Made by a program: the position numbers and the translations under genes | Assembly (NCBI GenBank): GCA_009841105.1 | Contig: VXMM01000030.1 | Span: 1-51,918 of the forward strand | DNA length: 51,918 nt | Source of the DNA: Acidimicrobiia bacterium | GTDB lineage: Bacteria > Actinomycetota > Acidimicrobiia > Spongiisociales > Spongiisociaceae | Direction of reading: 5' to 3' | In this document: positions 7,795 through 18,186 of the stretch, piece after piece | Numbering within the stretch: the stretch's first letter is position 1 | Layout: each line of letters starts with the position of its first letter | Notes under the pieces: generated by a model | The model's input: only the letters and a program-made list of their open reading frames with translations | Databases searched by the model: none | Told to the model about the DNA's origin: nothing

Positions 7795-8069
7795 TGGTAG
7801 TCGCCTCGACCTCCATGAAGGTCGACGTGGTCTCCCCCGAGGCCGTGTTGTGGTCCGGCGAGGCCGAGTTCGTGGTGGCCAGAACAGTGGAAGGCGAGAT
7901 CGGCATCCTCGCCAACCACGAGCCCGTGATGGCGGCCCTAGCCGCCGGAACGGTCAACATCCAAGCCGGCGAGGACCGGATCCGGGCGACCGTGGGCGGT
8001 GGCTTCCTCCAGATCCTCAACAACGCCGTCACCCTGCTGGTAGACGAGGCCACACTAGAAGAGGATTGA
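7794..8069 (+). CDS. atpC: ATP synthase F1 subunit epsilon, short form lacking the C-terminal helices
   Basis: The 91 residues are read from the GTG at 7794, which overlaps the atpD stop and has AGGAAG seven bases upstream; the ATG at 7815 would give 84 residues but has no ribosome-binding site. The sequence covers only the beta-sandwich (MKVDVVSPEAVLWSGEAEFV to VTLLVDEATLEED). It ends where the two-helix C-terminal domain of the roughly 130-residue family members would begin. That domain is the regulatory brake in many bacteria, so the brake may be missing or altered here. Two decayed copies of this 3' end lie at 9121-9269 and 18113-18186. Confidence 0.9.
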
Positions 8070-8218
8070 CCCCCGGTCTGGAGGCGAACGGTGGTGATGC
8101 CGTCGTAAGCGAACCGCTCCCTAACGTCGGGTGGGAAGGGGTGAGCCGTTCCAGGTCTCTGGAGGGTGTCCCCAAAGAGGGTCTTGAAAAGGGTCCGGGG
8201 ATGGGGTACGTTGCCGGT

Positions 8219-8503
8219 ATGGAAACCAAGCAGGCACGCGAGCCCTCGCCCGACGAGGCGCCAAAGCTCTACGCCATATTTGTGGCCGGTCCCAACCCAG
8301 ACATGGATCCGGACCTGGCCGCGGCTATGGAGGAGATCCATCAGGCCAGCCTCAGCAACCCTGACAACTTCTACAACAATCCTAAGAAGCATCGGGAGGC
8401 GCTGGAGGGCCTGGGCCGGCTGCTTGATGAATGGCAGGAAGAGAATGGGGCGTTCACCGAAGAGGAGTTGGAGGCTGCCCGGATCAGCCTGTACGGGGAA
8501 TGA
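8219..8503 (+). CDS. VapB-like antitoxin
   Basis: The 94-residue acidic protein is encoded directly before a PIN-domain toxin, with an ATGA overlap. The C-terminal part LDEWQEENGAFTEEELEAARISLYG has the pattern of antitoxin tails that wrap around VapC toxins in actinobacteria. The N-terminal part (METKQAREPSPDEAPKLYAIFV) shows no clear DNA-binding motif to me. The ATG at 8219 follows a G-rich stretch without a strong Shine-Dalgarno site. The pair lies 150 bases behind atpC and before the first atpC remnant, so it is part of the accessory block. Confidence 0.7.
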   Translation: METKQAREPSPDEAPKLYAIFVAGPNPDMDPDLAAAMEEIHQASLSNPDNFYNNPKKHREALEGLGRLLDEWQEENGAFTEEELEAARISLYGE

Positions 8504-8895
8504 CCATCGTCCTTGATGCCGGTGCGCTCATCGCCATCGACCGCGGTAGCCGTGATCTGCTGTCCCGACTGCAAACTGCGTTCGCGAACGGCGACCGAAT
8601 CCGTGTTCCCGCCGGGGTGATCGGCCAGGTTTGGCGGGACGGCGGTCGCCAGACCCTGTTGTCACGTGCTCTCAATCGATGCGAGGAGATACCGCTGGAC
8701 GGTCGGGCAGCCCGATCGGCAGGACAATTATGTGGTCGGACGGGCACTCGGGATGTGATCGACGCTTCGGTTGCGGTTGCCGTCGGTGAGTCGAGGGGTC
8801 GCGACAGAGAGGTCGTGCTCCTCACGTCCGACGCGGACGACCTGCGCACGTTGTTATCCGCCCTGAACACAGTTGCCCTGATCGTCGACGTGTGA
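8500..8895 (+). CDS. VapC-like PIN-domain ribonuclease toxin
   Basis: The 131-residue PIN-domain protein carries acidic residues at the expected places: Asp6 in MTIVLDAGALIAIDR, Asp85/Asp88 in DVIDASVAVA and Asp111-Asp114 in LLTSDADDL. VapC toxins cleave tRNA or rRNA with Mg2+ and are neutralised by the cognate antitoxin encoded just upstream. The ATG overlaps the antitoxin stop (ATGA), the usual VapBC coupling. There is no truncation. The exact RNA target cannot be read from the sequence. Confidence 0.8.
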   Translation: MTIVLDAGALIAIDRGSRDLLSRLQTAFANGDRIRVPAGVIGQVWRDGGRQTLLSRALNRCEEIPLDGRAARSAGQLCGRTGTRDVIDASVAVAVGESRGRDREVVLLTSDADDLRTLLSALNTVALIVDV

Positions 8896-9111: not shown

Positions 9112-9120
9112 ACCACCACC

Positions 9121-9269
9121 AGCCCCCTGGTGGCACCGCTCGCTACCCGCATCGTGAACATCCAGGCCGGCGAGGACCGGATCAGGGCGACGGTAGGCGG
9201 CGGCTCCCTCCAGATCCTGAACAGCCCGGTCACCTTGCTAGTCGACAGGCAGACCTCGAAGAGGACTGA
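9121..9269 (+). pseudogene. decayed copy of the atpC 3' end
   Basis: The reading frame gives VNIQAGEDRIRATVGGG, then LQILN and VTLLVD, clearly homologous to the last 45 or so codons of atpC. A one-base deletion after GTCGAC shifts the frame; restoring it yields VDEADLEED and a stop, just like atpC (VDEATLEED). No start or 5' half is present. It ends at the TGA at 9267-9269. Confidence 0.85.
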
Positions 9270-9647
9270 AACTAGGGGTTCGACAGCCCAGAGAGACCGC
9301 GGGTCCGCCATGGGGTGGTTGGGGGCGCTGCCGCTCCTCCGTAGACATGAGCCGGTTCACCTCCGCGGCGGTGTCTATGGCTCGATGGGGCGAACCGACG
9401 AGCTCGAAGGCGCCGTCAGCCGAGCCTGGAATGCGTTGGTCGACACCAACTCGGAGCACCCCGTGTCTCAAGGGTGCCTTAAGCTATCCAGTCCGGGCGT
9501 CCTCGGCCTCCGAGCGAGTTTCTAACCCGAACAGGGCTGCGGCGGAGCAAGGGACCACATTCGGAGCCGACGTTTGGCGATGGAGGCGTGTCACGCGGGA
9601 TGCTATCGTGACGAATTACGTGGATGTAATTGACGAAGGATGAGAAA
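9270..9647. other. left edge of the low-G+C island, no gene recognised
   Basis: A minus-strand frame (9238-9471) contains protein-like text (FELVGSPHRAIDTAAEVNRL) without a start signal or a family I recognise; it may be a gene remnant. From about 9520 the base composition falls towards A+T, marking the left edge of the methyltransferase island. Confidence 0.3.
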
Positions 9648-12050
9648 TTGGCCCTGAGCACTCAGCTCACTCTGCCAGCCGTGCCATCGGTTCGCGGACT
9701 CAGCGGTACCTTCAGCCCGAATCGTTCCCGCCCGCTGCACCGTTGGTATCAGTACCTCGAGGGATTCTCAGAGGACTTCGTGCTCGCATTACTGGATGAG
9801 TTCGGTGATCGAGCGAAGACCGTGCACGATCCCTTCGCAGGTGCCGGGACGACCGTCGTCGTTTCGGCGTTTTCGGGTCGGCTGAGCACTTACTGCGAGA
9901 TTAACCCCTTTATGCGTCTGGTAATTGATACTAAAACCACTGGAGTGCGAGAGGCAGTCCGAAGTACCTCCGACTTGAGTTTCTACTTACGTAGGGTCGC
10001 TCAAGTGGCGAGGACGAATCTGCCTGCTGCCGACGATGCTCGCAACGAACTCGCATCGACCTTTGGAGATAAGAACTACTTCGAGCTACAACGACTTCGT
10101 GAGTTGATCGCGTTGCGTCGAGCAATCACCGAGATGGACCCAGAAGTTCCCGCGTTTCGAGGTTTCGCCCAACTGGCCTTGGCTTCTATCGTCGTAGATA
10201 GTAGTGAACTGATAAGAGCCGGTGACGTGCGATATAGAAGGCCACGAGAGCTAGAACGGCGTATTGAGTCACCGCTCACGGCATTCGAGGAATGCACAGC
10301 CCAGTTCGTCACAGACCTCAGTCTCATCTCGGTCCAGGGAATGGCTAAGGCAGAGCTATTGACTGACTCAGCATTAGACACCCCAACATCGGCCGGCAGT
10401 ACCGATTTGGTTATCACCTCACCTCCATATCTCAATGGGACCAATTATTTTCGGAATACGAAGCTGGAGCTTTGGGCCACAGGCCTTCTCCAACATGAGA
10501 GTGAACTAGGCGAGTACAGAACACAGGCGGTTGCTGCTGGGATCAACAATGTGTCGAGCAGAGGGCGCGATCCTAGAACGCTGCCGTTCGTTGAGGGAGT
10601 GGCAACGGAGTTGGACATGGTTGCCTACGATCGTCGGATACCTGAGCTTGTCCGACGGTATTTCTCAGATGCATACGATTGGCTGAAGAACGTGTACATG
10701 CTGCTGCATCCTAGAGGCCATGCCCTAGTGGACATCGGGGACTCTCGGTTCGCTGGTGTACTTGTTAAGACCGATAGGCTTCTAACACAAGTTGCCCAAG
10801 AAGTTGGCCTCGAACTTACAGAGTCACGAGTCCTGCGCAAGCGTCGGTCGAAGGATGGTTCCCCACTTGAGCAAGTACTCTTGGTCTTTAGGCGGCCTGC
10901 CGAAAGCAAATACTCGGCGAGCTCTAGAGTTACTTTCCGTGCCAAGGCTAAGGACTTCGCAGCGACTTTGCCTCATCAGGAACAACCTCTGAGTGCGCGG
11001 AACTGGGGACACGGATGGCATTCTCTATGTTCTTATCAAGGGAAGCTCAAGCCAGCGATAGCGCATATTCTAGTGAAAGAGTTCACAACACCAGGAGAAG
11101 TAGTACTTGACCCGATGTCAGGAGCTGGGACGATTCCCTTGGAAGCATGTCTCCAAGGGCGGCGTGGATGGGGCAATGATCTTCTAGATCTTGCCTTCAT
11201 TCTAACTCGTGCGAAGGTAGGGCATGGAGAACACCATCTTGTTAGATCGGAGGCGGACAAGCTCATATCGTGGATCAAGGACCATCGCGCGGGCGACCAC
11301 CCGACGGTCTACAGCGACTTTGGTATGAATGGCCGTTTGCCAGATTACTTTCATCCCGACACGTATAGGGAGATACTGGCGGCGCGTGAGTACATCTGTA
11401 AGCATCCGGTCGACACGTGGGAAAGGGCAGTAGTCTATGGATCACTACTACACATCTTACACGGGAATCGGCCTTATGCCTTGTCACGGCGATCACATCC
11501 TGTGACACCATTCAAGCCGACAGGGGACAGCGAATACCGCTCGATCGAGCCTCGACTGATGGCGAAAATCGAACGAACATTGGGACAAGGATGGCCATCT
11601 CATTCGGGTCGAGGCCGCGCCTTCCAGAGTGATTTATTTGATCTCCCGTTTTGGCAAGAGATCGATGCGATTATTACGTCGCCTCCGTTCGCAGGTTCAA
11701 CCCGGTTTTATGTCGCGAACTGGATGCGACTGTGGATGACAGGGTGGGAGCCTTCAGATTTCGATGGCAATAAGACCAGGTTCATTGAATACAGGCAGCG
11801 TACCAGTTTGGATGTTTACAGCGAGTTCTTCGCCGCTTGCCACAGATGGCTTAGGCCGGATGGCCGTCTAATCATGCATGTCGGCCGCAATGGGAAATGG
11901 GACATGGCCACCGAACTGGGGCCGATGGCTCGGAAATGGTTTGACGTGGTGTACTCGTTTGATGAGTCTGTCGTCGGGAGAGAGAAGTTTGGCATCCGGG
12001 ATCAGGGTGGTACGAGATCACACCAGTACCTATTCATGGTGCGGGCTTGA
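9648..12050 (+). CDS. two-domain DNA methyltransferase (N4-cytosine/N6-adenine type)
   Basis: The 800-residue protein contains two complete amino-methyltransferase cores. Domain 1 has SAM motif I DPFAGAGTT (about 61-69) and catalytic motif IV TSPPY (about 257-261). Domain 2 has motif I DPMSGAGT (about 487-494) and motif IV TSPPF (about 677-681). Such tandem enzymes usually methylate the two strands of an asymmetric site. It protects host DNA, and the HNH protein encoded convergently two bases away is the likely nuclease partner. The TTG at 9648 has GAAGGA seven bases upstream; an in-frame TTG at 9630 is an alternative. G+C is clearly lower than in neighbouring core genes, a sign of transfer. 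Confidence 0.9.
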   Translation: MALSTQLTLPAVPSVRGLSGTFSPNRSRPLHRWYQYLEGFSEDFVLALLDEFGDRAKTVHDPFAGAGTTVVVSAFSGRLSTYCEINPFMRLVIDTKTTGVREAVRSTSDLSFYLRRVAQVARTNLPAADDARNELASTFGDKNYFELQRLRELIALRRAITEMDPEVPAFRGFAQLALASIVVDSSELIRAGDVRYRRPRELERRIESPLTAFEECTAQFVTDLSLISVQGMAKAELLTDSALDTPTSAGSTDLVITSPPYLNGTNYFRNTKLELWATGLLQHESELGEYRTQAVAAGINNVSSRGRDPRTLPFVEGVATELDMVAYDRRIPELVRRYFSDAYDWLKNVYMLLHPRGHALVDIGDSRFAGVLVKTDRLLTQVAQEVGLELTESRVLRKRRSKDGSPLEQVLLVFRRPAESKYSASSRVTFRAKAKDFAATLPHQEQPLSARNWGHGWHSLCSYQGKLKPAIAHILVKEFTTPGEVVLDPMSGAGTIPLEACLQGRRGWGNDLLDLAFILTRAKVGHGEHHLVRSEADKLISWIKDHRAGDHPTVYSDFGMNGRLPDYFHPDTYREILAAREYICKHPVDTWERAVVYGSLLHILHGNRPYALSRRSHPVTPFKPTGDSEYRSIEPRLMAKIERTLGQGWPSHSGRGRAFQSDLFDLPFWQEIDAIITSPPFAGSTRFYVANWMRLWMTGWEPSDFDGNKTRFIEYRQRTSLDVYSEFFAACHRWLRPDGRLIMHVGRNGKWDMATELGPMARKWFDVVYSFDESVVGREKFGIRDQGGTRSHQYLFMVRA

Positions 12051-12051
12051 G

Positions 12052-13437
12052 TTATCCCTCCGCATCCCGACGGAGAGTAGCCATCGTAAAGGGGGGACCA
12101 CCCGGCGTTCGCTGAAGTGCCTTGTCGAGCGCTTTCAGGAGGAGGTCGCCGGCCTTCTTTCCGTCCTTAACCTCTTGAAGCTCGGGAATCGAGAGGAACT
12201 CATCAAAGAACCAGTTCGCTCGGGAGCGCAAGTACTCAAGCGCCTGGAGATTGGGTGACGGATCTCGGAGTTCCAAGAGAGGAATGCCTGTTATTTCGGA
12301 TAGATCGTGGAGTTCGGTCGGGTTGTAGAAGTCGACGGGGGGGCGATCGCGCTTCGACGAATTGCACGTGCCACACAATGCTGTCGCCGTCTCGTCTAGC
12401 GGCCACGGAAGGGCTAGTGGGCGAGTGTGATCGAGGTGCATATCAGTAGGGGTTGCGAGCGGCGTGCTACACTTGAAGCAGCGGCCGTCGAAGCGCGAGT
12501 ACACATTATTCGCGAGTTCGGAGCCAGTTCGATGGCGGTAGCGGAGCTGATCGCTGCCTTCGTAGAGGTGTTCCAAGAGCAGTTCGAATGATCGGCGGCG
12601 CTGTGCGTCCTCCTTCATCTGAGCTGATGTACGCTGAGGATTGTGTGCGGCGTTGACCTCGAACTTCTTGCAGAACCGGCACTCAAGTTGGAAACCATAC
12701 TCCAAGTCGAGTACGGCACGGCTTGACTCCTCCTGTATACGCCCAAAGCTCGGGTGCTGGCAGGGTCGACGGTGATCAGCGACACAGTGGTTTGAGAAGC
12801 TGAGGTGTGCCCGTTCGTTATGTGTATTGATCGGTAAGAGTCGTCCGCAGCGATTGCAACTCTTGAGGTGGAGGGTCACGACATCCTCAGCCCGCACCAA
12901 CTCTTGGTCAGATTCAAGCGTTACATTGCCCGTCGCTGACGGGCGGTAGAAGTTCCCTTCCGGTGCGAAGTTCCACATGTTCGGGAGGAGCTCGGGCCGG
13001 GCCGTCGTAAGGTATTCATGCTCGACGATTCCGCATTGGAGCGCGTAGACAGCCACCGTAGCGGCAGTTCTGGCTCGCAGGCGCAACTCGATGGATCGCG
13101 TCGGCGCTGCATTGGTCACCCACTGACTGCCAAACTTGTTCCAGTTGGGTGTTGCGTGCGATGTGAGGACATGTCGTTCCGGTGGTCCGACGATGGCCGC
13201 TTCGACTTGATCGCTTCGGTAGTACCAACCGCCGAAACCGACTCTGTTCCCCTCGTCTACATCGGGGAGGTGGAAGGTGAATCGCATCTCGTGACCGGTG
13301 TCCAGGTGCACGGCGTCGATGTTCACGATCTCGAACCTGACCGGGAAGTGTGCCTTGAAGCCCGACTTTCTAGTCATCGCTCGGCGTCTACCGGCCCATT
13401 TCGCTTTTCCGGCTCTCTTGGGGCCCTCGCTCGTCAT
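12052..13437 (-). CDS. HNH endonuclease, probable restriction enzyme partner of the methyltransferase
   Basis: The 461-residue protein is encoded tail-to-tail with the methyltransferase. The C-terminal half contains an HNH core: CFKC, then HLDHTRPLA (the HxxH-type catalytic part), then LCGTCNSSKRD. Two further CxxC pairs (CNRCGR and CRFCKK) lie earlier, so it probably binds more than one structural zinc. The N-terminal 180 or so residues have no motif I recognise and may recognise DNA. Convergent placement with a methyltransferase supports a restriction-modification pair; a Septu-like HNH partner of the neighbouring ATPase is a second possibility. The ATG at 13437 follows a TTG at 13440. Composition matches the island. 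Confidence 0.8.
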   Translation of the reverse strand: MTSEGPKRAGKAKWAGRRRAMTRKSGFKAHFPVRFEIVNIDAVHLDTGHEMRFTFHLPDVDEGNRVGFGGWYYRSDQVEAAIVGPPERHVLTSHATPNWNKFGSQWVTNAAPTRSIELRLRARTAATVAVYALQCGIVEHEYLTTARPELLPNMWNFAPEGNFYRPSATGNVTLESDQELVRAEDVVTLHLKSCNRCGRLLPINTHNERAHLSFSNHCVADHRRPCQHPSFGRIQEESSRAVLDLEYGFQLECRFCKKFEVNAAHNPQRTSAQMKEDAQRRRSFELLLEHLYEGSDQLRYRHRTGSELANNVYSRFDGRCFKCSTPLATPTDMHLDHTRPLALPWPLDETATALCGTCNSSKRDRPPVDFYNPTELHDLSEITGIPLLELRDPSPNLQALEYLRSRANWFFDEFLSIPELQEVKDGKKAGDLLLKALDKALQRTPGGPPFTMATLRRDAEG

Positions 13438-14207
13438 CAAGCTCCATAGCTGCGGTGCTGGCCAAACTATCTCCGCTGCGCACTATTTCAAAACAAGATG
13501 CACGGATCAGGTCGGGCCGAGGCCGCGGAGACGAGATTACGGTGCGTCAGCACGTCAGCATGTCGGGCCGGGCGTTGACGAAGATCCCATTGCCCGCGCC
13601 GAACAGATCGGACGGATCGGCGGGAAGCTCGACCGTGGCCGTCTCCACCTCCCTGCTGCGGAGGTAGATCAGGCACCACGGCCATGCGACGATGATTACA
13701 CCGAGGTCGGCACTAAGGGCTCCGCAAGAGGGATCCGTCCCTGGGCTGCCCGCATGGGCTAGAAGTCCGGGACCGTCAAACACACCCCCAAGTTCTGGTC
13801 CATCATCGACCGCGTCAGGCCCGCCTCCCAGACCCAGGGGGACGTCGCTTCCGCGGGCAGGAGCATCTGGCTGGGCTCTCGCTGAGGCCAACATCCACCC
13901 GCGCCGCTAACCGATGTCTAGGGGCTAGCAGTCACCCCTCGCCCACCGTCCATGCCGGCGAGTGGGTAGCGGGGCGTCGACAATGACTAACATGGATCCG
14001 TCTAGGAACCTGCGAGCCGCGCAGTTCGTTTAGCCCCTGGTCGGAGGGAACCTGCCCGCGGATTAGGAATTGTTGCCGCGGCCAGGTGGGGGCGATCTTG
14101 ACCGAGGATCACGATGAGCGACTTCTTCGAATCACGACTTGGAAGGCCAATTGCAATCTCTAACGTGACTCGCTCGTGTGGCAAAGCCCCCGGAGTGGTC
14201 TGAGCGC
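13438..14207. other. 770-base region between divergent island genes
   Basis: No gene is convincing here. A minus-strand frame (13547-13894) ends in protein-like text (VIIVAWPWCLIYLRSREVET) but lacks a ribosome-binding site. A short plus-strand frame from 14114 (MSDFFESRLGRPIAIS) stops after about 30 codons. Both may be remnants. The regulatory regions of the HNH gene and of the ATPase gene must lie in this stretch. Confidence 0.3.
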
Positions 14208-16799
14208 ATGTCAAGCGAATCAGAAGATCTGGTACGCGCGATAGTCGAATGGTCGCGTGGGCGGCCACAGTGGCAGCGACAAGCTCTTCGAATGCTCGCG
14301 CGCCATGAGCCAGTCGGCGACGACGAGATATGTGCACTCGCCGATCTGGCGGAGCAAGAAGCAAGCGGTAGCTCTATTCGCATCAGCCCTTTACAACCCG
14401 AGGACTTCATGGGTGGTGCGGACGGGCAGGCGGTACGACTGCTCGCCGTTACAGAGCCAAGGGCGGTCAACGCACTGACGAGGAGTGGCGGTGTGGCCTT
14501 CGAGCCACACGGGATCACGTTGGTCTACGGTGAGAACGGAAGCGGGAAGTCAGGCTATGCCAGGATTCTTAAGAAAGTTACACGGGCACGCCATAGTTCT
14601 GACGTTCTAACCAACGTCTTTGAACCACCGGCTGAACAGTCTGCCTTGCTCAATGTGTCACTTGGATCGGATGAGATTGAGTTGACATGGCCCTTGGACC
14701 ACCCTGATTACCTCTCACGGGTGAGTTTCTATGATGCCAACTGCGCAGAGCGCTATATCTCTACCGAGACGGAGGTAGCCTACAGGCCTACGGCGATTGC
14801 CCTACTTCATGAGCTTGTGGGCCTGTCAGGCAGGGTCAAACACCAACTCGAAGTCAGACGCCGGTCCGAACTGCTCTACAAGACGGACCTGCCTTTGTTA
14901 CCAGAGGGCTCAAGAGCTGCAGGCTTCCTAGCATCATTGTCAGCTAAGACCACTCCACTTGAGATCGATATCGCTTCGGAGATACCAGCTAACGCCGATG
15001 AGCGCTTAGCCTCACTGCGTCGCCGGATCAACACTCTGGAGTCACAGGATTTGGATGAGAAACGTCGCCAGTTGAGCCAACTCCTTCAAGGCCTGACAGA
15101 CTTGATAGAGCACATCACCCGAACACGTGACCTACTGTCCGACACAAAGGTAGCCGCGATAATGCAGGCTCGGTCAGATCTAACCGTCACGCGTGAGGCT
15201 TTAGACTTGGCTAGCGCAGCTCGGTTCGAATCTCTGCCAATCAGCGGTGTCGGTAGTCAAGCGTGGATGAGCCTTTGGTCTGCGGCGAGGCGCTTCAGCG
15301 GTGAAGTGGCCTACCACGGGCGCGAGTTTCCGGTTCTCGACGTTGATGGTGAGCGGGGACGGTGCGTACTGTGCCACCAGCAACTGTCCGATCGCGCCGC
15401 TGCACGACTCCGTGCGTTTGATGAGTTTGTTGTGGCCGATGCGGAACGGATCGCTCGTCAAGCTAAAGATACATTCGAAAGGCTTGCGAGTATTCCTCGT
15501 ACGTACACTATCTTCAATACGAAGATCGAACTTGCTCTGCAGCGGGTTGACACGGCTAGTACGTCAACTCATGCCGAACTTCGTTCGGAGCTCCAGGCCC
15601 TTGAAGATCGGCGGTGCACGCTTGTTAGGGCGCTTGCTGATGGCGTAGTTGAGATTGAGAGCTTACCGTCGGCGGGCGACTTGGTAGCAGTGGAAGCCTT
15701 AGTTGAAGCTACTAAACAACAACTTAAGGATCTCAAAGCTGATAATCAACAAGCACAGCTGGCCGAACTGCGCGCTGAGGAAGCAGAAATACGCGGTCGT
15801 CAGACTTTGAGGGATGCTCGTACGGCGATTGATAGGCGAGTTGAGTATTTGAAGAAGTCTCGTTTGCTCGACGAGGCGATTCGTCTCACCAACACCCAAG
15901 GGATCACGCGGAGGGCGGCGGAACTCACACGGAGTCACGTGAGTGATGTGCTGAAACACCATTTCAGTCAGGAGACTCTGAGGCTCGATCTGGAACGCGT
16001 GCGCCTGCGCGATGCCGGAGGTGGGCGAGGAAACCTCAAACATCAAGCACAGCTAGTTGGGGCTATCCAGCCTGCCCCTCTTCGTGCCGTCCTGAGTGAA
16101 GGGGAGCAGACGGCCCTTGGCCTTGCCGGCTTCTTAACGGAGGTGGAGAGCGACTTCACCAACTCTGCGGTTGTTTTGGATGACCCTGTTACATCGCTTG
16201 ACCATGTGCGGCGCGAGCGAGTTGCCCGCCGCATCGTCGAACTCGCCATGCGGCGGCAGGTGGTTATCTTCACGCATGATGTCGCCTTCGTGGTGGATTT
16301 GAAAAGGGCAGCTGAAGCGGGGTCGGTGGCCGTTGCCGAGCGGTGGGTCACTAAGTTCCAGTCACATGTGGGTCGCGTGTCGGACGGGGGTCCGTGGGAT
16401 AGTCGAACCGTTGCCCAACGCATCGACCAGTTGAACCAGAGACTGGCCCAGATCAGGAGGGTCTACGACGAGGGCGACCCAACGGCTTGTCACGAGGCGG
16501 TTCGATCCTGGTATCAGGATCTCCGCCTGGTATGGGAGCGAGCCTTGGAAGAAGTGGTCGTTGGACCGGTTCTCGTACGAGGTCGTCTCGAACTCAGGCC
16601 CTCAAACCTAAAGGTATTCGTCCGATTCACAGACGTCGACGACCAGGAGTTTCAATCCGCCTTTACGCGATGTGGAGACCGAGGCAGCCATGATCGAAGC
16701 TCGGAACTCAACCGTCCTCTGCCGTCCGTGTCGGAACTCAACGAAGACCTCGAGCTATTGAGGAGTTGGCACGACCGAGTCCGTAGGTACGCTCGGTGA
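14208..16799 (+). CDS. RloC/PrrC-like ATPase with zinc hook and candidate anticodon-nuclease residues
   Basis: The 863-residue AAA_13/SMC-like protein has Walker A GENGSGKS (about 108-115), a coiled-coil arm with a CVLC zinc-hook motif (Cys386 and Cys389), an ABC signature LSEGEQ (about 629-634) and Walker B VVLDDPVTSLDH. The C-terminal domain contains RALEE followed by GSHD: Arg778, Glu782 and His828. This matches the Arg-x3-Glu plus downstream His pattern of the PrrC triad (Arg320, Glu324, His356). PrrC and RloC cleave tRNA when a phage or DNA damage disables restriction. The start at 14208 has GGAG about 14 bases upstream; a GTG at 14178 is also in frame. Anticodon nuclease activity is inferred; membership of the ATPase family is clear. 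Confidence 0.75.
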   Translation: MSSESEDLVRAIVEWSRGRPQWQRQALRMLARHEPVGDDEICALADLAEQEASGSSIRISPLQPEDFMGGADGQAVRLLAVTEPRAVNALTRSGGVAFEPHGITLVYGENGSGKSGYARILKKVTRARHSSDVLTNVFEPPAEQSALLNVSLGSDEIELTWPLDHPDYLSRVSFYDANCAERYISTETEVAYRPTAIALLHELVGLSGRVKHQLEVRRRSELLYKTDLPLLPEGSRAAGFLASLSAKTTPLEIDIASEIPANADERLASLRRRINTLESQDLDEKRRQLSQLLQGLTDLIEHITRTRDLLSDTKVAAIMQARSDLTVTREALDLASAARFESLPISGVGSQAWMSLWSAARRFSGEVAYHGREFPVLDVDGERGRCVLCHQQLSDRAAARLRAFDEFVVADAERIARQAKDTFERLASIPRTYTIFNTKIELALQRVDTASTSTHAELRSELQALEDRRCTLVRALADGVVEIESLPSAGDLVAVEALVEATKQQLKDLKADNQQAQLAELRAEEAEIRGRQTLRDARTAIDRRVEYLKKSRLLDEAIRLTNTQGITRRAAELTRSHVSDVLKHHFSQETLRLDLERVRLRDAGGGRGNLKHQAQLVGAIQPAPLRAVLSEGEQTALGLAGFLTEVESDFTNSAVVLDDPVTSLDHVRRERVARRIVELAMRRQVVIFTHDVAFVVDLKRAAEAGSVAVAERWVTKFQSHVGRVSDGGPWDSRTVAQRIDQLNQRLAQIRRVYDEGDPTACHEAVRSWYQDLRLVWERALEEVVVGPVLVRGRLELRPSNLKVFVRFTDVDDQEFQSAFTRCGDRGSHDRSSELNRPLPSVSELNEDLELLRSWHDRVRRYAR

Positions 16800-17169: not shown

Positions 17170-17802
17170 TTATGTGATGCGTGTGAATTCGGCTACCTGT
17201 ATTCGTCCCTCGAATGAGACTCCGTTGTCATCCACTCCCGTTCCTGACATCAAAATACGGTACATCATGTTCTCATTCAAGACCGTGATTTGGTGATGTG
17301 AGAGAAGGTTGCTTATCTTGTCATTCAAGTAGGCACATCTGGTATAGACTTCGACATAGTCGACAGGATCACCTTCGTAGGCCTTTAGGTTCCGGTGAAC
17401 TATGTTGCCGAGCCTCCCATACTCCTTAACTGCTTCTTCTCTTGTTAGCCAATCACCTTCAGGTCGAGGGTATGTTGCCCTGAAATTGCCGTGCGATGCC
17501 GTGAGATTCTCCACCATCGGGATTGGATAGCAATCTGGGTTGATGCCCTCCAGTCCCTTCAGTATTCGCTTAGGGCTGTATGCTCTTCGCAGACTGTGTG
17601 CTAATTCTGGCAGCTCATCAGCATTAGCGACAACACAGGCGACCGCAATGTCCTCTATGGTCATCCGTAATTGTAGGCATATGGATTCAATCATTGCCGT
17701 AGATATTCGACCCGTGGAGTGGGCATGGCTCACCGTCTCACTGATGTATTCCTTGCGCCACTTGATGCTCTGCATCACCCGTTCATACTTCTGGGTATCC
17801 AC
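17170..17802 (-). CDS. uncharacterised island protein, possibly 5'-truncated
   Basis: The 210 residues start at a GTG. The composition is the most A+T-rich in the window. Visible features are an early LQLRMTIEDIAVACVVAN helix pair and a later segment RILKGLEGINPDCYPIP followed by WLTREEAVKEYGRLGNIVH. I recall unnamed bacterial proteins with this same order of motifs, but know no function. In-frame protein-like codons (SASAEEYGGRRNAYV) continue upstream of the GTG to a TGA with no start among them. The gene may therefore have lost its 5' end. It lies at the right edge of the defence island and could be a further defence component. Confidence 0.65.
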   Translation of the reverse strand: MDTQKYERVMQSIKWRKEYISETVSHAHSTGRISTAMIESICLQLRMTIEDIAVACVVANADELPELAHSLRRAYSPKRILKGLEGINPDCYPIPMVENLTASHGNFRATYPRPEGDWLTREEAVKEYGRLGNIVHRNLKAYEGDPVDYVEVYTRCAYLNDKISNLLSHHQITVLNENMMYRILMSGTGVDDNGVSFEGRIQVAEFTRIT

Positions 17803-18112
17803 TACGTACGCATTCCTTCGACCGCCGTATTCTTCTGCCGAAGCTGACTTGGGTTTGTATCAACCAACAGACTCCGAATGGGATGGCATGGTACCGGCTA
17901 TAGGGGTTTGTCTGGAAGGCTGGCCATGTGGACTTTGGATGGTAAGCACTCGGTAGCCGCTGTGAGCCTGAACATCACTGGGTGACCTCGCGGCAGAGCC
18001 ACGCTTCCAGCCTTTCGTCAGAGACTGTAGTCAGCTGCCGCTGTGATGACCTAAGGCCGATTCCGACCAGGCTGGTGGATTGGGCCGAGAGTCTGTGATC
18101 CCGTATTGATAC
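17803..18112. other. right edge of the island, no gene seen
   Basis: Base composition returns to the host range within this stretch. Apart from the in-frame codons just upstream of the minus-strand gene, no coding signal is visible. Confidence 0.3.
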
Positions 18113-18186
18113 ATCAGGGCGACGGTCCGCGGAGGTTTCCTCCTGGTCCTGAGCGACGCCGTCACCCTGCTCGTAGACGAGGCAGG
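18113..18186 (+). pseudogene. second decayed copy of the atpC 3' end
   Basis: Seventy-two bases align without gaps to atpC (IRATV.GGFL..L..AVTLLVDEA); I count 59 identities. It shares with the copy at 9121-9269 the variant ATCAGGGCGACGGT, where atpC has ATCCGGGCGACCGT. The reading frame then runs into unrelated sequence. No 5' half is present. Confidence 0.75.

Follow-up and report, generated by a model that had tools for sequence, protein, structure and literature searches.

A probable RloC-type ATPase with a putative C-terminal RNase domain beside an independent restriction-modification cassette in an Acidimicrobiia bacterium

It was found that an Acidimicrobiia contig (VXMM01000030.1; its whole stretch of 51,918 nucleotides is the window referred to here) carries an rloC-like gene (PDC-S06 / AAA_13) at positions 14208..16799 of the plus strand. 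The open frame, coding to 16796, specifies a protein of 863 amino acids, and an upstream GTG at 14178 offers an alternative start that would give 873 residues. By analogy with characterised proteins, the product is probably an RloC-type ATPase with a triad-bearing RNase domain, which would cut tRNA in response to DNA ends and would act alone, the restriction-modification (R-M) cassette beside it being an independently acquired neighbour. Such a protein would be kept inactive until DNA double-strand ends, such as those left by phage-driven DNA degradation, are bound by its ATPase head and hook. ATP hydrolysis would then free the C-terminal domain, the anticodon loops of tRNAs would be cut, and translation would be halted until the DNA ends disappear. 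The R-M cassette may contribute at most indirectly, by supplying DNA ends. Catalysis, tRNA as the substrate, break sensing and phage protection are what I infer for the 863-aa protein from its likeness to RloC.

The protein matches the Pfam family AAA_13 (E=2.8e-19) and, over nearly its full length (residues 9-860), the PADLOC family PDC-S06 (E=1.7e-170). I assessed the conservation of its motifs in 117 full-length homologues (116 for some columns). The zinc hook and the ABC motifs claimed in the first-pass annotation were both recovered, all on the plus strand. The Walker A motif GENGSGKS (residues 108-115; 14529..14552) has G108, N110, G113, K114 and S115 conserved at 95% or more, as are S630-E633 of the ABC signature LSEGE (residues 629-633; 16092..16106) and D658, D659, P660, S663, L664 and D665 of the Walker B/D-loop VVLDDPVTSLD (residues 655-665; 16170..16202). 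The switch histidine H690 (16275-16277) is present in 117/117 sequences, and so is each cysteine, C386 and C389, of the zinc-hook CVLC (residues 386-389; 15363..15374). In the structure model of the full-length protein (pLDDT 89.0, pTM 0.64), the head fold resembles Rad50/SMC, a helical insert of about residues 195-592 separates the two ATPase halves, and long helices flank the CVLC hook on both sides of this coiled-coil insert.

Relatives of rloC in genomes were recovered with an alignment query, while scans of genome and viral collections with the single sequence found none. The full-length relatives, at about 20-38% identity, are distributed over plasmids of many Proteobacteria and genomes of many phyla. 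One relative, in an Acidimicrobiaceae metagenome-assembled genome (L056), is 70% identical. None of nine same-genus genomes matched, and neither did the phage records searched for the 863-aa protein.

The C-terminal stretch contains two overlapping R-x3-E motifs (...DLR773LVWE777R778ALEE782...), of which R773-x3-E777 (16524..16538, plus strand) starts five residues before the other. The first-pass annotation had proposed R778, E782 and H828 as the nuclease triad, the invariance of which was assessed by aligning the homologues. All three residues exist, and H828 (16689..16691, plus strand), preceded by Ser827, held up with 115 of 116 sequences. The other two were misplaced: R778 is conserved in 99/117 and E782 in 69/116, with Asp in a further 24, and that register was ruled out by conservation. 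E777, on the other hand, is present in 117/117 and R773 in 106/117. Thus, the working triad is R773-x3-E777-x50-H828, since R773, E777 and H828 are the conserved residues and E782 is much less so. The E777-H828 spacing of 50 residues is 48-53 in nearly all homologues. Because R-x3-E-x36-52-H arises in 37% of shuffles of the C-terminal stretch, the pattern in one sequence is weak evidence; judged from the alignment, it is the conservation across homologues that makes the motif real. The Rx4-6H motif of HEPN proteins is also fitted, by R821-x6-H828, and position 821 is Lys or Arg in 102/117 sequences.

In a clade of ten proteins among the closest relatives (L057-L065 and L113), the putative catalytic Arg773 is replaced by Ser within a conserved LSETWER-like motif, while E777, R778 and H828 are retained. 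Thus, Arg773 is not absolutely required for the persistence of the family. The Ser773 proteins may be weakened, or another residue, possibly R778, may stand in for the Arg. Since all ten retain Arg778, its use as the alternative Arg is kept in view as a minor possibility. The same substitution would suit a degenerate or non-nuclease Rad50-like ATPase of defence or repair, whose C-terminal domain serves for binding only. I give this explanation a slim chance, given that R773, E777 and H828 are all present both in the 863-aa protein and in its 70% identical relative L056, and that E777 and H828 hardly vary among more than 100 divergent proteins.

Is the C-terminal domain related to proven anticodon nucleases? 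The all-helical domain of residues 728-863 (16389..16796, plus strand), a putative HEPN-like RNase, was modelled alone with AlphaFold2 as a helical bundle (pLDDT 93.6, pTM 0.87). The HEPN entries 2hsb, 1jog, 7bxo and 3o10 recur as weak structural matches (best Z 8.6), and vinculin and hemerythrin bundles score equally; the structural matches of the model thus fall within helical-bundle noise. No anticodon nuclease was among the matches of the structural search with Foldseek, where such an absence is not evidence, and a search of the PDB by sequence turned up no PrrC structure.

Against the corresponding domains of other AAA_13 proteins from actinobacteria, the C-terminal profile scored 27.7 (60 column shuffles, at most 15.3; reversal, 12.9), and the alignment puts R773, E777 and H828 onto the conserved R, E and H of those domains. 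A shuffle control of the combined profile gave two aberrant scores and was left out of the evidence. The profile was linked to an intermediate AAA_13 group with P=2e-4, the intermediate group to the classic RloC-like group with P=5e-10, and the classic group to a PrrC profile with P=1e-4, R falling on R, E on E and H on H. The PrrC set was assembled from PADLOC model matches in genomes related to one of Enterobacter; R320, E324 and H356 stand as published in several of its 396-aa members. The RloC of Geobacillus kaustophilus, sought among sampled Bacilli via the published residue numbers, was not recovered. Compared directly, the C-terminal domain matches the classic RloC-like group weakly (P=0.02) and the PrrC profile not at all (probability about 1%). 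Judged from these profiles, the homology to proven anticodon nucleases is transitive, not direct.

This transitivity leaves room for a C-terminal RNase whose target is not the tRNA anticodon but another RNA, such as mRNA, under an unchanged break-sensing head. The nuclease domains of RloC and PrrC were assigned by Anantharaman and colleagues to the HEPN superfamily, and HEPN-type RNases vary widely in substrate (PMC3710099). However, the triad and its spacing match a group whose two tested members both cut tRNA (PMC2610378, PMC3874168). Another RNA substrate is considered unlikely, and tRNA cutting by an RloC-type protein is the reading followed here.

The neighbours are as the first-pass annotation described them. 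A tandem DNA methyltransferase of 806 aa (9630..12050, plus strand; PF01555, E=3.4e-20; PADLOC MTase_II, E=8e-82) has two domains with the motifs SPPY and SPPF, both of the amino-methyltransferase type. The next gene (12052..13440, minus strand) encodes an HNH protein of 462 aa, a probable type II restriction endonuclease (weak match to TIGR02986, E=2e-4; PADLOC REase_II, E=4.6e-5 at residues 266-366). The two genes lie tail to tail, with a single base between their stop codons. A pair of the same kind, likewise arranged, was found on the 6,453-bp Psychrobacter plasmid pA39BP3 at 40-44% identity (40% for the methyltransferase, which is split into two genes there). It was also found on four virus-like contigs (L180-L183), in one of which, L183, the methyltransferase frame is interrupted. 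HNH relatives that are 44-52% identical adjoin the same kind of methyltransferase. Those of the virus-like contigs L180-L184 are at 49-52% identity, four of the five adjoining a tandem methyltransferase, and may belong to a phage-borne R-M system. The pair is a self-contained cassette and not part of an rloC unit.

The first-pass annotation had further suggested that the rloC product guards this type II-like system, as PrrC guards its own. In such an arrangement the methyltransferase/HNH system would silence the protein, which would fire upon inhibition of the system. Immediate adjacency would suit a guard, as would the position of all three genes in one low-GC island missing from the corresponding site of a same-genus genome (G399). 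However, rloC and the HNH gene are divergent and about 770 bp apart, with a spacer that partly matches same-genus chromosomal DNA, and each of the two units also travels alone. No rloC relative lies beside the pair in the DNA examined of pA39BP3 or L180-L183. Conversely, at the L056 locus an Mrr-like restriction gene adjoins rloC and the pair is absent, and the pair was found at 0/116 rloC loci. This screen used single query proteins and flanks of up to 10 kb, shorter at contig ends, so its counts are lower bounds. Thus, each unit is complete without the other, and the independence of rloC from the R-M pair was established. Moreover, characterised RloC works without an R-M partner (PMC3874168). 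Taken together, a guard has a very slim chance indeed, and the juxtaposition looks like a chance neighbourhood in a defence island rather than a new partnership.

Most of the 116 rloC loci have none of the screened genes nearby and thus show a solo gene, in line with published accounts of R-M linkage as rare. Genes resembling type I hsd occur at no fewer than five loci, and other methyltransferases or SbcCD-like pairs at a few. A gene pair for an SbcD-like nuclease and a YhaN/SbcC-like ATPase was observed near rloC at L039, L040, L041 and L119; these cases are from plasmids and one Methylocystis genome and are about as frequent as nearby hsd genes. A loose link between RloC and R-M systems would not be new in principle. 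On a more novel reading, RloC would cooperate with the adjacent system in a two-layer defence of cutting followed by arrest, with HNH-made ends or loss of the methyltransferase triggering the tRNase. I regard this as decidedly improbable. Cooperation at the level of this strain draws what probability it has from the co-location in one island, which no relative found repeats. The solo, DNA-end-triggered RloC-type protein remains the preferred reading.

The surroundings show how the neighbourhood may have arisen. The G+C content falls from about 0.65-0.70 to 0.53-0.57 over the methyltransferase, HNH and rloC genes. In G399, only about 50 bases separate the atpC end from a nucleoside hydrolase gene whose counterpart in the window starts near 18.3-18.5 kb. 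The whole stretch of about 8.07-18.5 kb is therefore absent from this site in G399. The rloC gene lies in a horizontally acquired defence island. The approximately 770 bases between HNH and rloC have a higher G+C content of 0.62-0.63, and parts of them match DNA of four same-genus genomes (75-81%); where a genome yielded both this match and atpC, the two lay on different contigs. This host-genus spacer favours two separate acquisitions.

Some other features of the island were observed. Three diverged copies of the atpC 3′ end (77-83%) flank it at 7923-8050, 9115-9277 and 18112-18184. The inserts after atpC differ among same-genus genomes, from 0 to about 10 kb, so that the end of atpC resembles a hot spot for insertions. 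At the island edge (8196-8895, plus strand), a short acidic ORF is followed by a PIN-like ORF beginning with DAGALIAIDRG; the two have the look of a VapBC-type toxin-antitoxin pair and no Pfam match. A 210-aa protein encoded at 17170-17802 on the minus strand, in the low-GC part, contains RLGNIVH (R-x5-H), which is compatible with a small HEPN-type protein, and has no family match.

These results provide a testable mechanism for PDC-S06, an orphan family of PADLOC, which near-invariant E777 and H828 together with R773 would mark as an RloC-type nuclease family spread across many bacterial phyla and conjugative plasmids. They also remove a false lead, since the supposed new type of R-M partnership had rested on one chance neighbourhood.

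How does the 863-aa protein compare with known systems? Its full-length PDC-S06 match names no mechanism, as this candidate family is uncharacterised. In the definition of Davidov and Kaufmann, an RloC is 658-897 aa long, has an ATPase domain interrupted by a zinc-hook insert, and carries Arg-X3-Glu-X36-52-His, in which a Ser often precedes the His; cleavage was lost when any one of the three triad residues was changed to Ala (PMC2610378). RloC is rarely R-M-linked, and DNA breaks activate it even in R-M-deficient hosts (PMC3874168). All published sequence features of RloC are present here, namely the ABC motifs, their splitting by the hook insert, the triad with S827 and the length, and the RloC-like part of the first-pass annotation is borne out once the triad register is corrected. 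The protein shares with the RloCs of G. kaustophilus and Acinetobacter baylyi the coiled-coil-split ABC ATPase, the CxxC hook, the triad and the usual lack of a linked R-M system; however, the sequence similarity is distant, the E777-H828 spacing is at the long end, and I found no published test of the PDC-S06 subgroup, to which the protein belongs. The adjacent pair in turn resembles type IIS systems of the Alw26I/Eco31I/Esp3I type in its tandem methyltransferase and HNH endonuclease region, although the TIGR02986 score is far under the curated cut-off. PrrC of E. coli shares the ABC motifs and an Arg-x3-Glu...His triad (R320/E324/H356), whereas it is 341-416 aa long, lacks a zinc hook and resides in a type I hsd locus. 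The PrrC reading of the first-pass annotation was not sustained: the protein is hooked and twice as long as PrrC, the PADLOC PrrC model matches it at residues 654-694 only, around Walker B (E=0.0046), and family scans of the neighbours found no hsd-type genes. Rad50/SbcC proteins share the ATPase head and the zinc-hook coiled coil, but they have no RNase domain at the C-terminus, and their partners are Mre11/SbcD. By its sequence features, the 863-aa protein is probably of the RloC type, a known kind of defence protein, and not PrrC.
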